Source of the DNA: Oceanospirillaceae bacterium
Lineage (GTDB): Bacteria > Pseudomonadota > Gammaproteobacteria > Pseudomonadales > Litoribrevibacteraceae
DNA length: 64,000 nt
Direction: 5' to 3'
Assembly: GCA_015665455.1 (NCBI GenBank)
Contig: JADFAD010000002.1
Location: 186,001-250,000, forward strand
The notes beneath the pieces were generated by a model, which was not told where the DNA came from, searched no databases, and was given only the letters and a program-made list of their open reading frames with translations. Every line of letters begins with the position of its first letter. The first letter of the stretch is position 1. The translations under genes were made by a program, and so were the position numbers. This document shows positions 13,632 to 37,700 of this stretch, piece by piece.

Positions 13632-14261
<630 letters not shown>

Positions 14262-24027: not shown

Positions 24028-24204
24028 ATGGTTGACCAAATCCTTACACTTAAAGAAGTAGCGGCTTATCTAAAGTTAGCCGAGAAAACAGCATACAGAT
24101 TAGCAAGCGAAGGCAAGCTACCAGGCTTCAAGGTTGGTGGCTCATGGCGCTTTAAGCGAGAAGATTTAGAAGCTTGGATAGAAAAGCAAAAGGATAATGG
24201 ATGA
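24028..24204 (+). CDS. MerR-like helix-turn-helix (excisionase-type) protein
   Basis: This short gene of 58 residues reads MVDQILTLKEVAAYLKLAEKTAYRLASEGKLPGFKVGGSWRF and ends REDLEAWIEKQKDNG. It is the compact excisionase/MerR-like HTH domain with the GSWRF wing. Its TGA overlaps the ATG of the mrr-like gene (ATGA at 24201-24204), so the two are translationally coupled. Such small HTH proteins sit at the head of other defence operons as regulators, or act as excisionases. Regulation of the restriction genes is the simpler reading here. Confidence 0.85.
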   Translation: MVDQILTLKEVAAYLKLAEKTAYRLASEGKLPGFKVGGSWRFKREDLEAWIEKQKDNG

Positions 24205-25133
24205 TCCCCAATTACCAAGAGTTTATGCGCCCATTCCTTGAAGTGGCAAAGTCAGCCAATGGGAAAGAGGTAAAGCTTAGGGATGTGATTAATCAGTTAG
24301 CACAACGGTTCAATCTGTCAGAAGAAGAGCGAGAAGAGCGATTGCCTAGTGGTAAACAAACCATTCTAGATAACCGTATTGGCTGGGCTCGCACATACCT
24401 CACTAAAGCAGGTTTGCTTGAAGCCACTAAGCGGGCGCACTTCATTATTACAGATAGAGGTATTCAAGCGCTGCAAGATAAAGATGCGGTTATCAATAAT
24501 CAGTACTTAAAGCAGTTTGATGAGTTTGTTGCGTTCAAAGAGCAGAAAAATGACTCTTTAAGTTCGCAAACAGCCTCTACTGAAGTAATTGAAGATACAG
24601 TAGATGAAACCACTCCAGATGAAGTGTTAAGAGCTGCGTATAAACAAATAAATGACGCCTTGGCCTCAGATATCTTATCCCGAACCCGTAAAGTATCCCC
24701 AGCTTTCTTTGAGCAATTACTTATCGATCTGCTACTAGCAATGGGCTATGGGGGCAGCGATGAGGGAATGGCCCATACGCTTGGGAAGAGCGGTGATAAC
24801 GGAGTTGATGGCGTGATTAATCAAGACCCACTTGGCGTTGATCAGGTTTACATTCAAGCCAAGCGTTATGCTGATGGCAATAACGTTGGCGCTGGTGAAA
24901 TCCGAGACTTCTTTGGTGCACTCAATCTGAAGAAGGCACAGAAAGGGATTTTTATTACGACTTCAGAATTTACCTCATCAGCGACTCAAACAGCCAAAGA
25001 CCTTGGTATGCGTATAGTGCTTATTAACGGTAAAGAGTTAGCAAAACTGATGCTGCGCTACAACATTGGTAGCCGAGATGAGCAAGTTCTAAAGCTCAAG
25101 AAAATTGATGAAGAGTTCTTCGAAGGATACTAA
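24201..25133 (+). CDS. mrr: Mrr-type restriction endonuclease
   Basis: The 310-residue protein has the Mrr N-terminal winged-helix domain (MIPNYQEFMRPFLEVAK and DNRIGWARTYLTKAGLLEATKRAHFIITDRG) and a C-terminal PD-(D/E)xK nuclease (SPAFFEQLLIDLLLAMGYGGS, then GDNGVDGVINQDPLG and VYIQAKRYA). The catalytic D of DGVI and Q-x-K of IQAK lie as in family members. Mrr-type enzymes cut DNA carrying certain methylated bases. It overlaps the small HTH gene upstream and stands nine bases before hsdR with AAGGAAAGG between them, so it belongs to the same operon. Its relation to the adjacent methylase is discussed in the findings. Confidence 0.93.
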   Translation: MIPNYQEFMRPFLEVAKSANGKEVKLRDVINQLAQRFNLSEEEREERLPSGKQTILDNRIGWARTYLTKAGLLEATKRAHFIITDRGIQALQDKDAVINNQYLKQFDEFVAFKEQKNDSLSSQTASTEVIEDTVDETTPDEVLRAAYKQINDALASDILSRTRKVSPAFFEQLLIDLLLAMGYGGSDEGMAHTLGKSGDNGVDGVINQDPLGVDQVYIQAKRYADGNNVGAGEIRDFFGALNLKKAQKGIFITTSEFTSSATQTAKDLGMRIVLINGKELAKLMLRYNIGSRDEQVLKLKKIDEEFFEGY

Positions 25134-25142
25134 GGAAAGGTT

Positions 25143-28100
25143 ATGGAACAAGTAAGTAATTTCGATTTTTTAAAAAAACATCAAGATTGGTTATTTAAAT
25201 TGGCCGAAAGTGCTGAACTCAACTTTTCTTCCGATCCTAATACTTCGCTTATAAAGATACGACAACTAGGTGAGGCTATAGCGCAATCAATCGCTGCTCG
25301 TATAGGTGTTGAGGCAGGTGGTAACGTAAAACAAGTCGACCTTCTTCGAGACCTCGATTACAACTTACGTTTAGATGATAACGTTCGAGATGCTTTTCAC
25401 ACAATTCGAAAGCTAGGTAACACCGCCACCCATAATTTTGACAGTACTAGTCACCGTGATGCGTTAAAAGCAATAATGGTCGGGCATGCCTTGTCAATGT
25501 GGTTCCATATAACTTTTGGTGGCAATGCAGCCAAAGGTTTTAAGATAAAGAAATTTGTAAAACCACAAGATCCTTCAGAATATGTACGTTTGCTAGAAGA
25601 ACAAGTAGAACAACTAAAAACAGAATCTCAACGTAGCTCTGAACGTATAAAAACAGCCGAAGAACTGAGACACATTGAGTCTGAAAAGGCCGTTGCTGAG
25701 CGAGAGCGTGCTGAGCAAATGGCCGAAGATAAAGCCGTGTGGGAGCAAATAGCGCTAGAAAATGAAAAAGAAGCCGCACAGTACAAATCGGCAGCAGAGG
25801 CTGCAAATAAAGAATACATAAAATCATTCCAAGCTAAACCGAAAGAAGAACAAGCCGCAGAACTTAAACGTATTGAAAAATCTCTATTTGAGATGGATGA
25901 AGCGGAAACTCGTGTCATCATAGATCAACAACTAGTTGATGCTGGTTGGGAAGCCGATACTGTAAATATCAGGCATGCTGACAGAATTGTTAATGGAAAA
26001 AGAGTCCCCGGTTCCAAACCAGAGCCAAATAAAAACAAAGCAATCTCTGAATGGCCAACAGCATCAGGTCCAGCCGACTATGCACTATTTATCGGTATGA
26101 CTCTCGTAGGGGTTATCGAAGCAAAGAAGAATGCTAAAAATGTCTACGGCGCTATCGACCAAGCGAAGCGTTATGCAACAGGGATTGAAGACCTACCAGC
26201 AGATGTAGAAGTCACACAACACGGTGAATTTAATGCCCCCCTTACTTTTGCCACTAATGGCCGGGCTTACTTAAAGCAATTAGAGCAAGAAAGTGGTATC
26301 TGGTTTTTAGATGTGCGTGACAAGTCTAACCGCCGTAAAGCACTCAAAGGTTGGTATTCCCCACAAGAAATTAAAACCTATTTACGTCAAACACCTCAAC
26401 AAGCAAATGCTGAACTCGATGACATGGGATTTGATTACGAGTTAAAACTTCGTGATTACCAGAAAAAAGCGATTCTAAATGTTGAGAAGTCTATTAAAGA
26501 TGGCAAAGAAAGAGCAATGGTTGCTATGGCAACGGGTACAGGTAAAACTAAAACCTGTATAGCGCTTGTTTACCGCTTACTAAAAGCCGAAAGATTTCGC
26601 CGCATCCTATTTCTCGTTGACCGAAGTGCATTAGGTGAGCAAGCGACTGTCGATTTTGGTGAAGTGAAAATGGAAAGCATTACTAACTCCTTTGCTGATA
26701 CATTTGAAGTATTGGGCATTGAGCCAGATAAATCAGCGGTACCATTTCCAGAAGATGATACGAAAGTTCACATAGCGACCGTTCAAGGATTGGTAAAGCG
26801 TATTATGTACCCATCAGATAATGGCGCTAAGCCGGGTGTAGGGCAGTATGACTGTATTGTTGTAGATGAGTGCCATAGAGGCTATTTACTTGACCGAGAA
26901 CTCAGTGAAACTGAAGTTAAGTTCCGCGATCAAAAAGACTATATGTCAAAATATCGAGCCGTAATTGAATATTTTGATGCATTCAAAGTTGGATTAACGG
27001 CAACCCCAGCACTACACACGAAAGATATCTTTGGTGATCCTGTTTTTACTTACACATATACAGAAGCCGTTATCGATGGGCACTTAGTGGACCATCTTCC
27101 ACCAACACGAATCCATACCAAGCTCAATACGGATGGGATTAAATATCAGGTTAACGAAGAAGTTCAAGTGTATGACCCTCAAACTCATCAACTTGACTTA
27201 ATCAATACACCTGATGAATTAAACTTTGATGTTGCACAGTTTAACCGTAAGGTCATAGCACCTGAGTTTACGAAAGAAATATGTCGCTGGTTGATCGAAA
27301 GTGATTCTTTAAATCCATATTCTCAAGAGAAATCCTTAATATTTTGTGTTACCGATAAACACGCAGATGACGTAGTTGAAGCGTTGAAAGAAGCGTGTGA
27401 CAACTATTTAGGTGAGGTTGATGATGATGCTATTCAAAAAATCACAGGTGCATCAGACAAACCACTCGAAAAAATCCGTCGATACAAAAACGATAGGCTC
27501 CCTAACATAGCGGTTACAGTAGATTTGCTCACAACAGGGGTCGATGTCCCACGTATATGTAATCTAGTATTTTTACGCAGAGTGAACAGCCGAATCTTGT
27601 TTGAACAAATGCTTGGCCGTGCAACTCGTCGTTGTGATGAGATTTCTAAAGAACGTTTTCGTATTTTTGATGCTGTAGATATCTACAGGCAGCTTGAAAA
27701 AGTTAACAGCATGAAACCCGTTGTTACCAAGGTTGATATTACCTTTACTGAACTTGAAAGTGAGATAAAAGACAGCCCAGATCCTAAATTGCAGCAACTC
27801 GCTAAAGATCAGTTTCTTGCCAAACTTCAAAGTAAAAAGAATTACCTTTCACATAGCCAGCACTCAGATTTTGAACGCATAGTTGGTAAGCCTCCTCAAA
27901 AATTTGCACAAGAATTGAAAAAAATGAAAGTGCAAGACGTTGCAGACTGGTTTGTTAAAAACCCTGGTTTAGGTGAGCTGCTTGATATGAAAGTAAAAGG
28001 CACTGGTGGTAACAATAAAGTGGTTATTTCCACTCACGGCGATAAAGTTACAGGCACCTCAACGGGTTACGGTAGTGGTCAAAAACCTGAAGACTATCTG

Positions 28101-28604
28101 TCATCTTTCAACAAGTTTGTTAATGCCAATAGCAATCGTATGGTCGCAATTCAAACTGTTATCCAGCGTCCTTGGGAGTTAACACGTAATAGCTTAAAAC
28201 AATTGGCATTAGAGCTGGAAAAAAATGAATTCCGAGAAGAAGATCTAAAAGTTGCTTGGAAAGAAGTCAAAAACGAAGATATTGCCGCCCGTATTATCGG
28301 TTTTATTCGTCAAGCAGCGCTAGGTGAAGCGCTTGTTCCATATGAACAGCGTGTCGATAGCGCATTAGCTAAGATACTTAATAGCCAACCTTGGAAAACC
28401 CCACAACGAGAGTGGCTAGAAACCATTGCAGGACAAATAAAAGCTAACATCATTGTTGATGAAAGCAATCTTAATGAAGGTATTTTTAAACAAATAGGTG
28501 GTATTAAACGAGCCACTAAATTATTCGAACAACCCATTACTGATATTTTGAGCCAATTTAATAAATCTATTTGGTCAGAGGATGAACAACAACAGTCGGC
28601 TTAA
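25143..28604 (+). CDS. hsdR: type I restriction endonuclease subunit HsdR
   Basis: The 1153-residue protein starts with a DUF4145-like helical domain (residues 1-140, with RKLGNTATHNFDS), then a charged coiled coil (about 140-245). The nuclease domain carries the acidic residue in GPADYALFIG and E-x-K in GVIEAKKNAKN. The SF2 translocase has motif I (MATGTGKTKTC), motif II (DECHRG), motif III (LTATPA) and motif VI (QMLGRATRR). The C-terminal third matches EcoEI-type HsdR ends. It makes ATP-driven cuts at a distance from the recognition site when bound to HsdM and HsdS. Longer than EcoKI-type HsdR. Confidence 0.95.
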   Translation: MEQVSNFDFLKKHQDWLFKLAESAELNFSSDPNTSLIKIRQLGEAIAQSIAARIGVEAGGNVKQVDLLRDLDYNLRLDDNVRDAFHTIRKLGNTATHNFDSTSHRDALKAIMVGHALSMWFHITFGGNAAKGFKIKKFVKPQDPSEYVRLLEEQVEQLKTESQRSSERIKTAEELRHIESEKAVAERERAEQMAEDKAVWEQIALENEKEAAQYKSAAEAANKEYIKSFQAKPKEEQAAELKRIEKSLFEMDEAETRVIIDQQLVDAGWEADTVNIRHADRIVNGKRVPGSKPEPNKNKAISEWPTASGPADYALFIGMTLVGVIEAKKNAKNVYGAIDQAKRYATGIEDLPADVEVTQHGEFNAPLTFATNGRAYLKQLEQESGIWFLDVRDKSNRRKALKGWYSPQEIKTYLRQTPQQANAELDDMGFDYELKLRDYQKKAILNVEKSIKDGKERAMVAMATGTGKTKTCIALVYRLLKAERFRRILFLVDRSALGEQATVDFGEVKMESITNSFADTFEVLGIEPDKSAVPFPEDDTKVHIATVQGLVKRIMYPSDNGAKPGVGQYDCIVVDECHRGYLLDRELSETEVKFRDQKDYMSKYRAVIEYFDAFKVGLTATPALHTKDIFGDPVFTYTYTEAVIDGHLVDHLPPTRIHTKLNTDGIKYQVNEEVQVYDPQTHQLDLINTPDELNFDVAQFNRKVIAPEFTKEICRWLIESDSLNPYSQEKSLIFCVTDKHADDVVEALKEACDNYLGEVDDDAIQKITGASDKPLEKIRRYKNDRLPNIAVTVDLLTTGVDVPRICNLVFLRRVNSRILFEQMLGRATRRCDEISKERFRIFDAVDIYRQLEKVNSMKPVVTKVDITFTELESEIKDSPDPKLQQLAKDQFLAKLQSKKNYLSHSQHSDFERIVGKPPQKFAQELKKMKVQDVADWFVKNPGLGELLDMKVKGTGGNNKVVISTHGDKVTGTSTGYGSGQKPEDYLSSFNKFVNANSNRMVAIQTVIQRPWELTRNSLKQLALELEKNEFREEDLKVAWKEVKNEDIAARIIGFIRQAALGEALVPYEQRVDSALAKILNSQPWKTPQREWLETIAGQIKANIIVDESNLNEGIFKQIGGIKRATKLFEQPITDILSQFNKSIWSEDEQQQSA

Positions 28605-28735: not shown

Positions 28736-30247
28736 ATGAGCACACAAGACCTAATTAACAAACTCTGGAATTTATGTAACCTGTTGCGAGATGACGGTGT
28801 AACTTACCACGAGTACTTAAACGAATTAACCTACTTAATATTTTTAAAAATGGTAGAAGAAACAGGGCAAGAAGAACTTATCCCTGAAGGTTTTCGTTGG
28901 TCTGACATTGAAGAGTTCAATGCTGTAACTCGTTTAGATGAATACAAAAAACTGCTTATTCACCTAGGTTCACACGGTTCACTAATAACCAAAGCTATTT
29001 TTGCTGATGCCTCAACTTGTATTCGTAAACCAGCGACCTTAAACAAGCTAGTGACTGAAATTGATAATCTTGACTGGTACTCGGCTAAAGCAGAAGGTTT
29101 GGGCGATATGTACGAAGGCTTACTAGAGATAAATGCTAGTGAGAAAAAGTCAGGTGCTGGTCAATACTTTACCCCGCGAGTACTCATCGAGGCGATGGTT
29201 GAGCTCATGAAACCAAGCTTAGATGATGTAATAGTAGACCCAACCGCTGGTACAGGCGGTTTCTTGATTGCAGCCCATCATGAGCTTAAAAAGCACAACA
29301 ACATAAAAACCCTTGATGAGCTAGCATACGAGAAATACCAGCACGGTACATTTTTTGGAATGGAATTAGTACCTGATACTCGCCGTTTGGCGATGATGAA
29401 CCTAATGTTACATGATTTAGCAATAGACGATGACAACGCAGGTGTTTTATATGGTGATACGCTTTCAAACGAAGGCAAAAATTCACTACCCAAAGCGAGT
29501 TTAATTTTAGCCAACCCCCCCTTTGGTACCAAACAAGGTGGTGGGATACCTACGCGTGATGACTTAGTACATTATACCTCCAATAAACAATTAGCCTTTT
29601 TACATACCATGTACCACAGCATGTTAAAGCCCGGTGGCCGTGTGGCAGTAGTATTACCTGACAACGTGTTATTTGAAGGTTCAACTGGCCGTAAAATTCG
29701 CAATGATTTAATGGAAAAGTGTAATCTGCATACCATTTTACGCTTACCTACGGGCATCTTCTATGCGGCAGGTGTAAAAACCAATGTTTTGTTTTTTGAT
29801 AAGCCTACGGATATAAATCAAGATAAAGGCAATACCAAAAAGGTATGGGTATATGACCTTCGTGCCAACATGCCGCAATTTGGAAAACGCACCGTATTAA
29901 CCAAAGACCACTTTAAAGAGTTTTATCAAGCCGTTGGTAGTGATTTAACCCAAGTAGATGAAAGCAAACGCCAAGCTTTTATTGATAACCACCAAGACGG
30001 CAGTGAAATTGGTAATGTGGATACGTGCCGACTAAGAGCGTTTACTCGTGAAGAAATTGCAGCCAAAGAAGATTCTTTAGATTTAGCATGGATACGAGAC
30101 GACAGTATTGAAGATGCGGCCAATCTGCCAGAACCTGATATTCTCATTAACGAAGCCATTGAAGAGTTAGCAGGTGCGATAACAGATTTAAAATCAATCT
30201 TAGTTGAGTTGGATGTGGCAATAGATTCTGACGAGGTTATGGTATGA
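28736..30247 (+). CDS. hsdM: type I DNA methyltransferase subunit HsdM
   Basis: The 503-residue N6-adenine methyltransferase has the N-terminal HsdM helical domain (LINKLWNLCNLLRDDGVTYHEYLNELTYLIFLKM), the SAM-binding motif VDPTAGTGGFL and the catalytic NPPF of LILANPPFGTKQ. It adds a methyl group to adenine within the bipartite site chosen by HsdS and so protects the host DNA. The last four bases overlap the start of hsdS. An AGAA stretch precedes the ATG as a weak ribosome site. Confidence 0.96.
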   Translation: MSTQDLINKLWNLCNLLRDDGVTYHEYLNELTYLIFLKMVEETGQEELIPEGFRWSDIEEFNAVTRLDEYKKLLIHLGSHGSLITKAIFADASTCIRKPATLNKLVTEIDNLDWYSAKAEGLGDMYEGLLEINASEKKSGAGQYFTPRVLIEAMVELMKPSLDDVIVDPTAGTGGFLIAAHHELKKHNNIKTLDELAYEKYQHGTFFGMELVPDTRRLAMMNLMLHDLAIDDDNAGVLYGDTLSNEGKNSLPKASLILANPPFGTKQGGGIPTRDDLVHYTSNKQLAFLHTMYHSMLKPGGRVAVVLPDNVLFEGSTGRKIRNDLMEKCNLHTILRLPTGIFYAAGVKTNVLFFDKPTDINQDKGNTKKVWVYDLRANMPQFGKRTVLTKDHFKEFYQAVGSDLTQVDESKRQAFIDNHQDGSEIGNVDTCRLRAFTREEIAAKEDSLDLAWIRDDSIEDAANLPEPDILINEAIEELAGAITDLKSILVELDVAIDSDEVMV

Positions 30248-31869
30248 ATCAAGTTCCTTCAGGATGGATAGAATCTAAATTGGGTGACTTTGTTAAGCTT
30301 AAAAATGGTTTTGCATTTAAAAGTAAAGATTACATCGATGCTACGGAAAACTCCGTTCCCGTAATAAGAATATCTGATATTCAGAACGGGAAAGCTTTAA
30401 CAGATAAAGCTTCCCATGTAGATCAATCAAAGACTGATGAAAGGTTTTTAATTAATAAGGGTGACTTATTAATAGCAATGTCTGGCGCAACAACTGGTAA
30501 AACGGGAATTTATAAATCCGACAAAGAAGCTTATCAGAATCAACGTGTAGGCAATTTGAAGTTAGTTTCAGAAGACACTTCATGCCCACGGTACAGAAAT
30601 TATCTTATAAAAAGTTTACAAAATGAGATTCTAAAGAAAGCTTACGGCGCTGCACAACCCAACATATCTGCAAAAGATTTAGGCGACATTGACATAATGC
30701 TGGCTCCTTTCAAAGAGCAAAATCGCATTGCAGATAAATTGGATTCGGTATTAGGCAAAGTTGAAACTGCACAAGTTCGACTCGATAAAATCCCAACCAT
30801 CTTAAAGCGCTTCCGCCAATCCGTCCTTGCAGCCGCTACCTCAGGCGAACTCACCAAAGACTGGCGTGAGGAAAATGGCATTGATTTAAGTCGTTGGAAG
30901 AACTCTAATATCGGCGAGTTGGCTGAAGTCAAAACAGGTAGTACTCCATTAAAATCGAATAAGGAATTTTATTTAAATGGCACTGTTCCTTGGTTAACCA
31001 GTACAGTTACAGGGCAGAATTTAGTTACAAAAGCAGAAAAATTCGTCACAACTAAAGCCGTTGAAGAGTGCAGGCTGAAGGTTTTTCCTTCAGGTACACT
31101 TTTAGTAGCGATGTACGGAGAAGGAAAAACTAGAGGGCAAGTCACAGAACTCGGTATAGAGGCAACTATAAACCAAGCTTGTGCAGCAGTATTAGTAGAT
31201 CAGTCAAAAGCGAATAATAATTTTATTAAGCTTTCTATTATATCCAATTATGAAAAAACAAGACTTATGGCTGAAGGGGGAGCGCAACCAAACTTGAATT
31301 TGAGCAAAGTTAGAGCTATATCGGTTAATCTACCTTCAGATGGTGAACAATTGGAGATAGTCCGTATAGTAACTGAATTATTTTCCAACATAGAGCTGGT
31401 AGAAAAGCAATATAAGGAAGCAAAGCTTCGAGTCGAAAAGGTGACTCAATCAATACTAGCGAGAGCGTTTAGTGGCAAACTATTCTCACCAATATCAAAT
31501 GATGAAAGAGAAGCAGCCACAGTTAAAACACAAAGTTCCCAAGCGCCGAATATTAAGTCAAAGCAAAAAGAAACTTCGCAGGTAAGTAAGGATGCACAAG
31601 CTCTCAAGATTGAGAATAAGTTTAGATCACAAATAAAAATAGTTTCAGAACCCGCGACTGAAGGTGCTGAAGAGAAAATTAGCGAAGTGTTTAAGCTATT
31701 AAAGGGCAATAGTAACGGTATGTCCGCACAGGCATTATTTGATTCTTTATCTGATAATACCTTCAGCGCGATTGATGATCTTTTTAGTGAGTTAAAAAAG
31801 CTTATTGAACAAAAAACCGTTATGCAGACTGGAGAAGGTGATAGTAGTACTTTTAAGGTGGCTAAATAG
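30244..31869 (+). CDS. hsdS: type I specificity subunit HsdS with an unusual C-terminal extension
   Basis: The 541-residue protein has the two target-recognition domains expected of HsdS. TRD1 covers about residues 1-150, the first conserved helical region follows (EQNRIADKLDSVLGKVETAQ to QSVLAAATSGELTKDWRE), then TRD2 (about 215-375), then the second helical region that ends LARAFSGKL. Normal HsdS ends close to this point, about residue 410. Here 130 further residues follow: a low-complexity linker (KTQSSQAPNIKSKQKETSQ) and a compact helical domain that resembles a winged helix (EEKISEVFKLLKGNSNGMSAQALFDSL). The stop overlaps the next start by one base (TAGTG). Confidence 0.92.
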   Translation: MNQVPSGWIESKLGDFVKLKNGFAFKSKDYIDATENSVPVIRISDIQNGKALTDKASHVDQSKTDERFLINKGDLLIAMSGATTGKTGIYKSDKEAYQNQRVGNLKLVSEDTSCPRYRNYLIKSLQNEILKKAYGAAQPNISAKDLGDIDIMLAPFKEQNRIADKLDSVLGKVETAQVRLDKIPTILKRFRQSVLAAATSGELTKDWREENGIDLSRWKNSNIGELAEVKTGSTPLKSNKEFYLNGTVPWLTSTVTGQNLVTKAEKFVTTKAVEECRLKVFPSGTLLVAMYGEGKTRGQVTELGIEATINQACAAVLVDQSKANNNFIKLSIISNYEKTRLMAEGGAQPNLNLSKVRAISVNLPSDGEQLEIVRIVTELFSNIELVEKQYKEAKLRVEKVTQSILARAFSGKLFSPISNDEREAATVKTQSSQAPNIKSKQKETSQVSKDAQALKIENKFRSQIKIVSEPATEGAEEKISEVFKLLKGNSNGMSAQALFDSLSDNTFSAIDDLFSELKKLIEQKTVMQTGEGDSSTFKVAK

Positions 31870-33464
31870 TGAAGGTAGACTTTTTAAAAATCAGGGATGG
31901 CTTTAAAAATATCCACAATTTAGAAATAGACTTTGATGATAAAGAGTTATTAACGGTTCTTATTGGTAGAAACGGATCTGGAAAATCGAATATTATTGAA
32001 GCCTTAGTGCGTATTTTCAGAGCTTTAGACCTTGGTGAAGAACTAGCGCCCTTTAGCTATAAATTAATATATTCATTAGGCGCTAATAATGAAAAGCGCA
32101 TTGAAATTGATGCCTCACCAAATTATGGCAGTACTCCTCACCAACAACACAAAATAAAGGTTGCGATTAAGCAGGAAGGTAATACCTATTCAAAACCTGA
32201 AACAGTGGCTCTGTCAAAGGTTAAGCGTGATAAAAATGGGGCTTCTGAGTACTTACCTCAACACCTTTTCGCCTATTATTCAGGACCTAGTGATAGATTG
32301 GAAGACTTGTTTAAGCCTCATAGAACAAAGTTTTATAATCAACTATTAAAAAACAAAGTAAAAATTGAAGATGAGGTTCGCCCATTATTTTACGCGAAAC
32401 CATTTCATAGCCAATTTGTGCTACTCGCTTTCTTTTTAAACCAGCAACATGGTGTAGGTCGTGAATTTCTATCAGAGCAGTTGGGTATAAAAGACTTTCA
32501 TTCGGTTCACTTTGTATTTCGCAGACCTGAATGGGGTAAAAATAATAAGAAAGATATCTTTTGGGGCGCTCGTGGCGTAGTTCGTGAGTTTTTAGATAGG
32601 CTACTCCCTTATAGTTATGGCCCTATAAAATCTACAAGAGAAGAAGCAACATCGTTAACAGGTAAAGGCGTTGATAATGAGTTCGTACATTTGTTTTTGC
32701 CCGATATATACGGTTTAAAGAAAGTAGCCAAAGGCCTAAAGCCGAAAGACTTTTTTAAAATGCTAGAAAGCACATTGCTTTCTGAGCTTATTGATAGCGT
32801 AAATATCAAAGTTAAATTACATAACGATGAAATTGTTAGCTTTAGTGAATTAAGTGAAGGTGAGCAACAGCTACTGACCGTATTAGGTCTTCTAGAGTTT
32901 ACTGTAGAAGATGACTCCTTATTTTTGCTAGATGAGCCAGATACTCATTTAAACCCTGCATGGGCTGCCAAATACCATACTTTTCTTAAGCGCTTTATAC
33001 CGAATCAAAAGTTCTGCCATATCTTAATGGTAACCCATCACCCACTAGCGATTGCTGAATTAGATAAAAAGCAAATACAAGTAATACGTAATAATACCGA
33101 TGGATTGTCGATAGCTGAAGTGCCAGCTGAAAGCCCAATAGGAATGGGCGTTAATGGCATACTAACCAGTGACATGTTTGGCATGGCTACAACGCTAGAT
33201 AGGCACACAAGCTGTGTTATTGAGAAACGAAGGACGTTACTCGAAAAAGAGGCTTTAACTGAACACGAAACCAAAGAACTAAGAAAGCTAAACGGTTCGT
33301 TAGAGCGGTTAGGTTACGGCTATACCCACCCAGATGAAGATTATAGGCAGTTCCTAATTGCTAGGAAAAGAGCAATGGACGCTATGGATTCTAAAGGTAT
33401 AGATGACACTCAGTATCGGTTGAAGATAATTGAAAATATCTTGAAGACAAAAGGGCTGGTCTAG
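31869..33464 (+). CDS. AAA ATPase, PtuA-like, linked to the restriction genes
   Basis: The 531-residue ATPase belongs to the SMC/RecF/OLD-type AAA group: Walker A GRNGSGKSNI near residue 33, the ABC-like signature LSEGEQQLLTVLGLL near 325, and Walker B LFLLDEPDTHLNP near 345. The C-terminal ~130 residues after TTLDRHTSCVIEKRRTLL have no recognised domain. The start is a GTG that overlaps the hsdS stop, and the stop abuts the HNH gene. In Septu systems PtuA is such an ATPase paired with the HNH nuclease PtuB. It also matches the group called restriction-system-associated ATPases. No TOPRIM domain is seen, so OLD nuclease is unlikely. Confidence 0.75.
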   Translation: MKVDFLKIRDGFKNIHNLEIDFDDKELLTVLIGRNGSGKSNIIEALVRIFRALDLGEELAPFSYKLIYSLGANNEKRIEIDASPNYGSTPHQQHKIKVAIKQEGNTYSKPETVALSKVKRDKNGASEYLPQHLFAYYSGPSDRLEDLFKPHRTKFYNQLLKNKVKIEDEVRPLFYAKPFHSQFVLLAFFLNQQHGVGREFLSEQLGIKDFHSVHFVFRRPEWGKNNKKDIFWGARGVVREFLDRLLPYSYGPIKSTREEATSLTGKGVDNEFVHLFLPDIYGLKKVAKGLKPKDFFKMLESTLLSELIDSVNIKVKLHNDEIVSFSELSEGEQQLLTVLGLLEFTVEDDSLFLLDEPDTHLNPAWAAKYHTFLKRFIPNQKFCHILMVTHHPLAIAELDKKQIQVIRNNTDGLSIAEVPAESPIGMGVNGILTSDMFGMATTLDRHTSCVIEKRRTLLEKEALTEHETKELRKLNGSLERLGYGYTHPDEDYRQFLIARKRAMDAMDSKGIDDTQYRLKIIENILKTKGLV

Positions 33465-34343
33465 TTGCGATATATAGATATTAACTTAATTGATGCATGT
33501 AAACCTGACGACTGGGATGTTAATGCCACACAGTGGTTAACTGATATTCAGAATGCCCAGGATAAATCAGCAGAATTTAAGCGACTTGGTAGTAAATGGT
33601 CACCATTCAAGGATAACTTTATCAACCAATTTGGCGATAAATGTTGGTATTCGGAAGTTCCAAGAATTGGTACGGATTTCAATGTCGATCACTTTAGACC
33701 CAAAGGAGCCGTTAAAAAGGCCAAGGAGTCTTATGCAGTCCAAGTCGTTAATGGGCAGAGTCAAAAGCATCCTGGATATTGGTGGTTAGCATTTGAGCCA
33801 AAAAATTATCGATATTCTTGTCAGTACGCAAACCAACCAAGAGATAACGGTGGGAAACACGATTATTTCCCACTGGATAATGAAACTAATAGAGTTTGGA
33901 GTCAATGTTCATTAAGGAATCATAACGCTGAAATTCCCGTTCTTATAGATCCATGTGTACTTGCTGATGTTCAATTATTATCATTTGAAAAATCCCCAGG
34001 CATGGCACATTCTAGATACGATCAAACCACAGATAAATCTAAATATGAGAGAGTGAGGACTAGCGCTAAGTGCTATAACCTTAATCATAAGACGGTGAAA
34101 GATGAGCGGCTAAAAGTAATAACATCGGTTCAGCGAGACTTAGAACTATTGGAAAGTATTTACGGTTTACCATTGGCAAGCAAGCAGGCTATGCAAGTCC
34201 ATTCAGGCAATGCTGAAAATCGACTAATTGAAGCCTGTAATAGGTATGCCCCATTTTCAGCAGCCGCAGTAGCTTTTGTTAAACCCAAGAAAGCAGAGCC
34301 TTGGTTGGCTAATATTTTACCTAGATTAGACCTTAGCGATTAA
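33465..34343 (+). CDS. HNH endonuclease, PtuB-like
   Basis: The 292-residue protein starts at a TTG right after the ATPase stop with no gap. The HNH core runs from C60WYSE through D75-H76 (NVDHFRPKG) to GYWWLAFEPKNYRYSCQYANQ. Related HNH proteins use CxxC knuckles at both ends to hold zinc; here each keeps only the first cysteine (C60WYS, C119QYA). The catalytic histidine and the asparagine of the core are kept. The C-terminus (VKPKKAEPWLANILPRLDL) has no known domain. The pairing with an ATPase gives the Septu-like reading, but I cannot exclude an accessory nuclease specific to this restriction system. Confidence 0.72.
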   Translation: MRYIDINLIDACKPDDWDVNATQWLTDIQNAQDKSAEFKRLGSKWSPFKDNFINQFGDKCWYSEVPRIGTDFNVDHFRPKGAVKKAKESYAVQVVNGQSQKHPGYWWLAFEPKNYRYSCQYANQPRDNGGKHDYFPLDNETNRVWSQCSLRNHNAEIPVLIDPCVLADVQLLSFEKSPGMAHSRYDQTTDKSKYERVRTSAKCYNLNHKTVKDERLKVITSVQRDLELLESIYGLPLASKQAMQVHSGNAENRLIEACNRYAPFSAAAVAFVKPKKAEPWLANILPRLDLSD

Positions 34344-34464: not shown

Positions 34465-35688
34465 TTATGGATAATCTGAGTTTATAAGCTTAATTAGTTT
34501 ATTTGAGAGCAACTTCAAAGCCTCTCTCCGTTCTTTCAAATAATCATACTGGTCATAAATACCTTCAACACCCTTTAACTTGTGATTCAAGCATCTCTCG
34601 GCCACATGGCCGGGAGTGCCTTGTTTTGCCAGTAACGTACGACATGTACGGCGCAGGTCATGCACAGTGAAGTGCGGCGTATTCCCCATCAAGTTGGGCG
34701 GTTGCTTCTTCTTGCCAGCCTCATGCCCAAATAGCTTGGTAATGGCTCGGTTAAGCGTATCAGGGCCCATATAAGGCCGCTTACTAGCTCTTCTATTGGG
34801 GAATACATAATCAGCGCCACAAGCCCTTATTTTAAGCTCGTTAAACCACTCAATCGCCAGCTCTGGCAATGGAATATCAATCCCCACCCCCGACTTACTT
34901 CTCTCTGCTGGCAACGACCAAACGCCTTTCTTAAGATCAAACTCAGACCAAGGCGCTTCTGTAAGCTCCCCCTTCCTTACCCCCAACAACACCAGCAAGG
35001 CACACGCTAGATAATTATCACGAGTAAAGCTGTCGCTGTTTTCCCTAAAGATTTTAAACACTGCTTTAAGCTCATCTATAGATAAAGCTCTGCTCTTACT
35101 CTTTTCCATACCACCAGCATCATCAACTGAAAATGCAGCAGCAGGATTAGAACTGACTACATCTAGCTTTATGCCGTGATTAAAGAGCTGCTTGCAGTAC
35201 ATGAGCGTATCATTCGCAACAGTAGGGCGACCGCTATTCACAACCTTAGTTATGATCTCTCGAATGTCTCTAGGAGAGATTGAGGTTGCTTTTGAATCAC
35301 CAATAAAAGGGGCAATGTCTTTTCTATATATGCGTTCGGGAATATTCGGGTATTTGAGTCGCTTGACTAGCCCTTTATGCCAATCCTTAAAAAGATCATC
35401 GACCGTGAAAATCTTTGCTTGATCAGAGCGTCTTTTGAGTAAAAGAGGGTCTGAGCCCTCTCTAAGTTGTTTCTTCTTTATAGCTGCTTCTAGCCTTGCC
35501 TCGGCTAATGAAAGATCCATTAGTTTACCAAGCGTCATCTCTTTGCGCTTTTTGTTCGAGGTATAGCGAAGCATCCAATAGGGCTTACCTGACTTAGGTA
35601 CAACAAAATAAAGCCCATCACCATCAGCGAACCGTCCAGGCTCGCCTTTCGTTTTAGCATTGATTTCTTTTGCCGTTAAGCTACCCAT
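34465..35688 (-). CDS. int: yicC-type island integrase (tyrosine recombinase)
   Basis: The 407-residue integrase has the DUF4102 N-terminal arm-binding domain (MGSLTAKEINAKTKGEPGRFADGDGLYF), a core-binding domain, and a full catalytic domain. The catalytic residues are R in LLGVRKGELTEA, H-x-x-R in HDLRRTCR, the second histidine in LNHKLKGVEG and the nucleophile Tyr in YDQYDYLKERREAL. It sits next to the attachment site in yicC and points away from it. Integrases of SXT-mobilizable islands (MGIs) such as MGIVflInd1 also use the 3' end of yicC, and this one is the natural candidate for that group. Confidence 0.95.
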   Translation of the reverse strand: MGSLTAKEINAKTKGEPGRFADGDGLYFVVPKSGKPYWMLRYTSNKKRKEMTLGKLMDLSLAEARLEAAIKKKQLREGSDPLLLKRRSDQAKIFTVDDLFKDWHKGLVKRLKYPNIPERIYRKDIAPFIGDSKATSISPRDIREIITKVVNSGRPTVANDTLMYCKQLFNHGIKLDVVSSNPAAAFSVDDAGGMEKSKSRALSIDELKAVFKIFRENSDSFTRDNYLACALLVLLGVRKGELTEAPWSEFDLKKGVWSLPAERSKSGVGIDIPLPELAIEWFNELKIRACGADYVFPNRRASKRPYMGPDTLNRAITKLFGHEAGKKKQPPNLMGNTPHFTVHDLRRTCRTLLAKQGTPGHVAERCLNHKLKGVEGIYDQYDYLKERREALKLLSNKLIKLINSDYP

Positions 35689-35877: not shown

Positions 35878-36744
35878 CTACTCAATATTCTGGATCTGCT
35901 CACGCATCTGCTCGATCAACACCTTCAATTCCACCGCGCACTTAGTCGTTTCTGTCACAATGGACTTTGATGACAGGGTATTGGCTTCGCGATTCATTTC
36001 TTGCATTAAGAAATCCAAACGTCGACCCACAGGGCCTTTTTGTTTCAGTACACGAGCAACTTCTGTCACGTGGGCATCGAGACGATCAATTTCTTCGTCC
36101 ACGTCGGCTTTTTGAGCCAAAATCACAATTTCTTGTTCAACGCGCTGGTTATCCAATTCAGACGTCAGCTCTTCCAGACGTTCTTTAAGATTTTGGCGTT
36201 GACGATCCAATATTTCTGGCAGCTTTTCACGGACTTGTTTGGTGATCTCAGAGATAGAAACCAAACGCGTTTCAATGAATGTCTTAAGCTCCGCACCTTC
36301 ACGAGAGCGAGTATCCAGCAATTCATCCAAGGCTTTATTCAGAACGGTCGCCGCGTCTTTCAAAATAATTTTACGATCTATTTCAGAAAGCACTTGAACA
36401 CCCGGCCAGTTCAAAACGGTCGCAGGGCCAATTGAACCTTGCTTAGGCAACAATTCGTTAATGCTGGTTAAGGCGGAAACAACTTCTTGTGCGCGTTGCA
36501 TGTCCACTTCAATAGCTGAACTGCTTTCAGTATCGGTTTGGACTCTTAACTGCAATTCGACTTTACCGCGATTGAGTTTCTTACGAACGGTCTCGCGTAC
36601 GGTCTGCTCTAGGTCTCGATAACCCTCAGGCAACTTAGGGTACACTTCCAGATAACGGTGATTTACAGAGCGTAACTCCCAAACCAATGAACCCCAGTCA
36701 AATACACCCTCAGCTCGGGCAAAAGCAGTCATACTACGCGTCAT
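35878..36744 (-). CDS. yicC: YicC family endoribonuclease
   Basis: The 288-residue protein starts MTRSMTAFARAEG, keeps the family region LVWELRSVNHRYLEVYPKLPE, and ends IEQMREQIQNIE, the near-invariant YicC C-terminus. The E. coli protein is an RNase that degrades RyhB. I start at the ATG at 36744 because AAGGA precedes it; the frame extends to 36792 without homology. The gene is intact even though the island is joined to its last codons. It is divergent from rph. Confidence 0.93.
   Translation of the reverse strand: MTRSMTAFARAEGVFDWGSLVWELRSVNHRYLEVYPKLPEGYRDLEQTVRETVRKKLNRGKVELQLRVQTDTESSSAIEVDMQRAQEVVSALTSINELLPKQGSIGPATVLNWPGVQVLSEIDRKIILKDAATVLNKALDELLDTRSREGAELKTFIETRLVSISEITKQVREKLPEILDRQRQNLKERLEELTSELDNQRVEQEIVILAQKADVDEEIDRLDAHVTEVARVLKQKGPVGRRLDFLMQEMNREANTLSSKSIVTETTKCAVELKVLIEQMREQIQNIE
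35880..35898. repeat. island attachment site at the yicC side (attR)
   Basis: ACTCAATATTCTGGATCTG is the reverse complement of the last six yicC codons plus the first base of its stop, and matches 14311-14329 exactly. The island supplies a new TAG stop here, while the other copy leads into TGA, so the encoded yicC protein is unchanged. Confidence 0.9.
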
Positions 36745-36931
36745 GATTATTCCTTGGAAAAAAGTCTGTGCTGAATTGTAGCGGTTTTCCACCCAGAGGT
36801 CAGGTTGTGAATATTGGATTAATTAATCCATGAGTTGTCTGTTTACTCTTAAATCGCGGATACAAAGTACAAAACGTTAAATAGAGCAATCAATATAGAT
36901 CAATGGTTGAAGTTAAGGGGCAGTCCTTTGC

Positions 36932-36937
36932 TATAAT
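36932..36937 (+). promoter_or_regulatory. -10 box upstream of rph
   Basis: TATAAT lies 40 bases before the rph start. TTGAAG starts at 36907, giving a 19-base spacer, so the -35 match is imperfect. Confidence 0.45.
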
Positions 36938-36977
36938 GCGAATCAATTTTTAAGACCCATACAATTAGGAAGCTCAT

Positions 36978-37700
36978 ATGCGCCCAAGTGGACGAAGCAC
37001 AGACCAACTTAGAGAAGTCAAAATCACTCGTAATTTTACTCGTCATGCCGAAGGTTCGGTGTTGGTTGAATTTGGGGATACAAAAGTTATTTGTACTGCC
37101 AGTGTTGAGTCTCGCGTACCAGGATTTCTAAAAGGAAAAGGCCAAGGTTGGGTAACCGCTGAATACGGCATGCTTCCTCGTTCTACGGGCAGCCGTATGA
37201 TTCGTGAAGCAGCAAAAGGCAAGCAGAGTGGTCGTACGGTTGAGATTTCTCGCCTGATCGGTCGTTCACTTCGCGCAGCCATCGATCTTGACGTATTGGG
37301 TGAGAACTCAATTACAATCGATTGTGATGTGATCCAAGCAGACGGCGGTACACGTACTGCGTCGATTACGGGTGCGTGCGTTGCTATGGTTGACGCGGTA
37401 AACCACATGTTGAAAGAAGGCATGATCAAGAAGAACCCAATCAAACAGATGATCGCGGCAATTTCTGTAGGTGTTTATAAGGATCACGCAGTACTGGATC
37501 TTGATTACCCTGAAGATTCCAACGCAGAAACCGACATGAACGTCATTATGGCGGAAGACGGCGGTTTTGTAGAAATCCAAGGCACTGCAGAAGGCGCACC
37601 TTTCAGCGGTGATCAACTGACTGCCATGTTGGATCTTGCTAAAAAAGGAATTGCTGAAATCATTGAACTTCAGCGTCAGGCACTTGATCAAACAAACTAG
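36978..37700 (+). CDS. rph: ribonuclease PH
   Basis: The 240-residue phosphorolytic exonuclease carries [16 protein letters not shown] at the start, [19 protein letters not shown] with the phosphate-binding arginines, and [31 protein letters not shown]. It trims tRNA 3' ends. Length equals the family norm. It is divergent from yicC, as in Pseudomonas. Confidence 0.97.

Follow-up and report, generated by a model that had tools for sequence, protein, structure and literature searches.

What does the specificity subunit of a type I restriction-modification system gain from a long C-terminal extension that runs straight into the gene of an ATPase? The role known for HsdS is, to our knowledge, that of reading DNA and not that of a docking platform. 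The question is raised by a stretch of 64,000 nucleotides from an Oceanospirillaceae bacterium (contig JADFAD010000002.1, positions 186,001 to 250,000; hereafter the window), in which hsdR, hsdM, hsdS, ptuA and ptuB follow one another in a single operon on the + strand. The restriction subunit gene hsdR (25143..28604, 1153 aa) matches NCBIfam PRK11448 with 1410 bits, and hsdM (28736..30247, 503 aa) encodes the N6-adenine methyltransferase subunit (Pfam N6_Mtase, 1.6e-69). The hsdS ORF (30244..31869, 541 aa) contains two Methylase_S stretches (Pfam E 1.3e-43), and its product has the two target recognition domains and the two conserved helices of an HsdS, its predicted structure resembling 1yf2 (E 1.5e-28) and EcoKI 2y7c (E 2.1e-22). 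It lies outside the EcoKI HsdS equivalog PRK09737, scoring 184 bits against a curated cut-off of 662 bits. The two distal genes are those of a Septu pair: ptuA (31869..33464, 531 aa) encodes the ABC-type ATPase (PADLOC PDLC00293, E 1.4e-193), with intact Walker A (G33-S40), signature (LSEGE, 328), Walker B (to E356) and H-loop (390), and the adjacent ptuB (33465..34343, 292 aa) encodes the HNH-type nuclease (PADLOC PDLC00343, E 2.7e-78), in which DH 75-76 and N114 are conserved in the alignment.

The operon belongs to a probable mobile island (14262-35688), flanked by gmk (13632-14261) and by yicC/rph (35878-37700), which also holds an IS30-like transposase, a JAB/RadC-like gene and a tyrosine integrase at 34465-35688, all named by eye. 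An Mrr-like type IV restriction gene (24201-25133) lies immediately 5′ of hsdR. A close relative of the operon with many frameshifts, tail and ptuA included, is found on the Vibrio anguillarum plasmid p15 (L002:2379-13737), and upstream of this degraded version, too, lies a gene for a restriction endonuclease. In two E. coli loci (L022 and L023), the cassette adjoins dinD-yicG-ligB, which we take to lie beside yicC-rph in this species; hence the island of the window and the E. coli cassette possibly share an insertion spot.

In the HsdS of the window, residue 413 (nt 31482) is the last of the helix motif ARAFSGKL and 128 residues remain, in agreement with the extension of about 130 residues that a sequence-only reading of this DNA had placed past the motif, from a start (31471) just inside it. 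When HsdS was predicted alone, as that reading had advised, the full-length model (pLDDT 86) was a confident canonical HsdS with a compact C-terminal domain. The body, TRD1-CR1-TRD2-CR2, covers residues 1-413 (30244..31482) and is followed by a linker of residues 414-478 (31483..31677), made of a short helix (419-432) and an unstructured low-complexity part (428-478, pLDDT below 50), and then by the domain of residues 479-541 (31678..31866), a putative PtuA-docking adaptor, in which residues 481-539 hold the helices and strands and the pLDDT by block is mostly 86-91, 62 and 68 being the lowest block values. The linker and the compact domain that had been anticipated are thus both present, but the compact part accounts for only about 62 residues, half of the 130, so that the other 65 or so form the linker. 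The ATPase gene does follow directly, since the ptuA start at 31869 shares one base with the hsdS stop.

The last 78 residues predicted on their own gave a weaker model than the whole protein (pLDDT 70.5, pTM 0.50), with the succession helix-helix-helix-strand-strand, which is the winged-helix arrangement and was also obtained by AF2 within the full protein. Foldseek/VIA searches with the tail model returned winged-helix proteins as weak matches (best E 0.007, Z up to 8.6), and its fold relatives, all with modest scores, include linker histone H1, Fur/PerR and BlaI/MecI. The winged-helix-like character suspected from the letters is therefore borne out as a predicted fold of moderate confidence (pLDDT 70-90, best E 0.007), and by sequence the tail had no match above chance in Pfam, NCBIfam, PADLOC or PDB. 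The nearest E. coli EcoKI-type HsdS without PtuA (L220, 455 aa) ends at ...EKIKAERAASGGKKASRKKS, a point past which the HsdS of an E. coli locus with PtuA (L221) continues into the domain. More than 75 homologous loci have kept the domain, so the tail is not a chance read-through. These tails form one alignable domain with the consensus LxxxLxxAxxxLSxQxLFxxxGxxxxxxTxxxExFFxELRxxL...I...DxFxL, which diverges most in tails of the KG3 type (L025) and in those from the outer edge of the PtuA family (L113, L114).

The link between tail and ATPase was followed in 88 loci, consisting of the best 80 from a scan with a PtuA alignment (one genome per species), annotated records and the window. In 86 of them, the end of an hsdS ORF and the start of ptuA are no more than about 70 bases apart; another, with a divergent tail (L090), was at first missed because of Ns in hsdS, and in the last (L045) a contig end truncates the upstream DNA. 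Hence hsdS lies immediately before ptuA in all 87 loci with readable upstream DNA, nearly always with a recognisable domain, in either of two gene orders, M-S-A-B and S-A-B-M. As the loci were gathered by PtuA similarity, this count is biased in the direction from PtuA to tail. The opposite direction is free of that bias but offers fewer cases, and its tail profile, derived from the same loci, misses the most divergent tails (L025, L113, L114). Within this scope, the tail was found in 9 of 5,426 E. coli genomes, always accompanied by PtuA, twice among 72,556 plasmids, both times before ptuA, in 2 further genomes among 398 random ones of the phylum, again with ptuA next door, and twice in viral contigs, both with PtuA. 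In another genome (G128), a tail remnant at the contig start is followed by ptuA. The tail of the window and one other tail gave no match in viral scans, nor did tblastn on plasmids with the tails of two other subfamilies. No HsdS with the domain but without PtuA was encountered in the E. coli genomes, the plasmids, the two random-genome sets or the viral contigs, so that the expectation of finding tails solely in loci with the ATPase gene behind hsdS held in all these searches.

The domain is not a general feature of HsdS: among 369 random Gammaproteobacteria, 181 of which have Methylase_S genes, the profile matched no HsdS except that of the window, and none of the control HsdS loci that were read carries it. 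One genome provides an internal control, since near its tailed system it encodes a second HsdS (L064:18151-19512, 453 aa) with neither a tail match nor an adjoining PtuA. Profile matches to IHF alpha and to proteins of about 780 aa, seen in many genomes, were partial and lay outside HsdS. The length of HsdS was rejected as a marker of the tail because many long HsdS proteins gain their length from other parts. In one locus, a short PtuB reading frame (L031:10899-11336, 145 aa) stands beside an intact PtuA and a tailed HsdS.

The restriction subunit is a less constant member of the operon. HsdR is present in 45 of the 88 loci, and in 29 of the 74 loci (about 40%) that have either HsdR or some 10 kb of upstream DNA, it is absent and no DExH helicase ORF is found. 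HsdM-HsdS-PtuA-PtuB loci of this kind include L022, L023, L024, L037-L039, L042, L043, L047 and L050. As far as the DNA of the loci tells, HsdMS and PtuAB can therefore be a unit, and the tail persists in the loci without hsdR.

Pairwise distances compared across 79 loci point to the partner of the tail. Its distances correlate at 0.90 (bootstrap 0.88-0.92) with those of the PtuA ATPase core, against 0.48 with CR2 of the same HsdS, 0.60 with HsdM and 0.57 with PtuB, and when HsdM and the HsdS body are controlled for, the partial correlation between tail and PtuA is 0.83 (permutation p 0.0005). Three modules emerge, each diverging as one, namely HsdM with the HsdS helices, the tail with the first 80% of PtuA, and the last fifth of PtuA (window 33150-34343 and homologues) with PtuB, this last fifth showing a correlation of 0.85 with PtuB versus 0.61 with the rest of PtuA. 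Natural swaps follow the same lines. Between loci L056 and L068, HsdM and CR2 are 86% and 88% identical whereas PtuA and the tail have 45% and 12% identity, and between L022 and L054 the PtuA core (85%) and the tail (84%) are alike while CR2 (43%) and PtuB (34%) are not. From such comparisons, PtuB seems to be exchanged jointly with the PtuA C-terminus, L022 versus L054 being an example.

It is thus probable, direct binding being our inference, that the HsdS tail is an adaptor that docks PtuAB onto HsdM-HsdS. The sequence-only reading had the tail recruit the ATPase/HNH pair to the restriction complex. The linkage, the co-divergence and the swaps support recruitment, but they suggest a contact with PtuA and not with the HNH protein PtuB, and only HsdM-HsdS, not the whole restriction complex, is almost constantly present to receive it, since 29 of the 74 loci that could be assessed lack HsdR.

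Other roles for the tail would fit part of these observations. The tail and the first 80% of PtuA make up one correlated block that is contiguous on the DNA, much like a recombination block, and because the two are adjacent, linkage could account for part of their co-divergence. The 3′ end of hsdS might then simply travel with ptuA, the domain having no role specific to PtuA. This is unlikely as the whole cause because the domain was never found alone; moreover, 87 loci from several phyla retain the junction and its domain, whereas a neutral tail would be expected to decay, the boundaries of the correlated blocks fall inside genes, and in loci of the TIGR04435 family a different tail goes with a different ATPase. 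A winged-helix fold also brings DNA to mind, since domains of this fold are frequent DNA binders and are also present in other restriction enzymes (PMC12707154), so that the tail could widen the DNA footprint of HsdS and be tied to PtuA only indirectly. However, the domain is acidic in 75 of 79 homologues, the linker being basic, and helix 3, which is the recognition helix of DNA-binding winged helices and would be expected to be neutral or basic, is acidic in 77 of 79 and positive in none. Such charges make it more likely, judging from the residues, that the domain binds protein rather than DNA. Together with a divergence that tracks PtuA and not HsdS, and with the absence of the domain from ordinary HsdS proteins, they render a DNA-binding role very improbable. 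Finally, the presence of HsdR in about half of the loci would suit a tail that recruits HsdR, or a protease for restriction alleviation, instead of PtuA; but the tail is kept where HsdR is missing, and HsdS proteins of ordinary RMS operons have none, which leaves this reading hardly any probability.

If the tail is the adaptor proposed above, a flexible tether ending in an acidic domain of winged-helix fold would bind the ATPase core of PtuA, presumably on the ATPase head, for which the winged helix of kleisins on SMC heads is a precedent. The tail would thereby fix PtuA, and through it PtuB, to an HsdM-HsdS complex that reads both the DNA sequence and its methylation state, and PtuAB would act as an effector under HsdMS control, added to HsdR or replacing it. 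The trigger could be the recognition of unmodified foreign DNA, with PtuAB as an alternative or added effector, or else the inhibition of HsdMS by a phage, which would release PtuAB in the manner of PrrC.

The latter trigger defines a guard, which has the same docking step as the adaptor model but specifies what sets the effector off: HsdMS would silence PtuAB through the tail, and phage inhibitors of the Ocr, Stp or ArdA type would release an abortive effector, perhaps one that targets tRNA. We regard this as a real possibility, though with a probability below even, and we know of no HsdS tail associated with PrrC. PrrC is an anticodon nuclease of the ABC-ATPase kind whose gene is always tied to a type IC hsd locus; the enzyme EcoprrI keeps it silent, and Stp, a peptide of T4, activates it (PMC3874168, PMC3874165). 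The PtuAB of Retron-Eco7 is toxic, depletes tRNA-Tyr and is held neutralised by RT-msDNA (PMC11555353), and the Septu EcB88 cleaves tRNA-Tyr (PMC13096335), making control by a partner module an established property of the PtuAB effector. However, another Septu PtuAB was reported to act on nicked DNA and not on tRNA, according to the part of PMC11555353 that cites this work. Under the adaptor model, guarding and targeting could be told apart by deleting or swapping this one domain.

With the adaptor as its central element, HsdM-HsdS-PtuA-PtuB could constitute a distinct defence system and a third type of Septu, a proposal that we hold to be evenly balanced. In it, a methylation-reading complex would aim or release the PtuAB nuclease without needing HsdR, by means of an acidic HsdS adaptor, and the TIGR04435 sisters would use different adaptors for different PtuA-like ATPases. 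Should this be true, a type I restriction complex would be seen to hand over to a second effector, and PtuAB would gain a third type of controller beside none, as in Septu I, and retrons. The genomic rule that a tailed HsdS implies a PtuA-type ATPase next door also helps to annotate such defence loci, which current tools report as two separate systems. In the open literature, to which the search was confined, no prior description was found of the HsdS tail, of an HsdS winged helix or of a Septu-HsdMS system.

Septu is listed in PADLOC with types I and II only (PMC8565338). Like type I, whose PtuA and PtuB models are the best PADLOC matches, the system of the window has an ABC-type ATPase and an HNH protein encoded by adjacent genes; however, canonical type I is a two-gene system, whereas here the pair follows a tailed hsdS in every readable locus. 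In retron I-A or Septu type II (Ec78/Eco7), another module likewise controls PtuAB and can act as an antitoxin (PMC11555353, PMC8565338), but the controller there is RT-msDNA and here it would be HsdMS. No reverse transcriptase match was obtained among the seven operon proteins scanned, and the PtuA of the window scores 65 bits against a cut-off of 500 for the retron-type PtuA NF041760. EcoprrI-PrrC also ties an ABC-ATPase-coupled nuclease gene to a type I R-M operon that regulates it. Yet PrrC is a single polypeptide with an anticodon-nuclease domain, found in type IC loci, whereas the window encodes a PtuA with no match to a second nuclease domain, a separate HNH-type PtuB and an adaptor domain on HsdS. 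MADS similarly joins HsdM-like (MAD2 methylase), HsdS-like (MAD5) and AAA ATPase (MAD3) components in one system, but scores against its cut-offs are far too low (34/400 and 102/720 bits). A winged helix docked on an ABC-ATPase head is known from the kleisin C-terminus on SMC heads, and 4i99 and 1w1w are both in the fold list of the tail (Z 7.6-7.7, tied with many other winged helices); the fold alone is common to them and there is no evidence for a shared origin.

The nearest parallel in gene arrangement is offered by TIGR04435, which NCBI names a "restriction system-associated" AAA family ATPase, a name in which the link between ATPase and restriction is already recorded for this sister family. 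Its PtuA-like ATPase also comes right after hsdS and has an HNH-like partner, and its HsdS also bears an extra C-terminal stretch, but that tail is unlike the one in the window, whose ATPase reaches 126 of the 300 bits required. Three control loci (L187:5716-10179, L188:5853-10254 and L197:2746-7165) have other HsdS C-terminal extensions followed by PtuA-like ATPases, those of L187 and L197 belonging to TIGR04435, and four plasmid loci of the family (L216, L217, L218 and L219) are organised likewise, with hsdS broken in one of them. In all seven, the TIGR04435-type or similar ATPase directly follows the extended HsdS and precedes a partner protein of about 340-390 aa, HNH-like where tested. 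The association of an extra HsdS tail with an ABC ATPase hence seems to be wider than the subfamily of the window.
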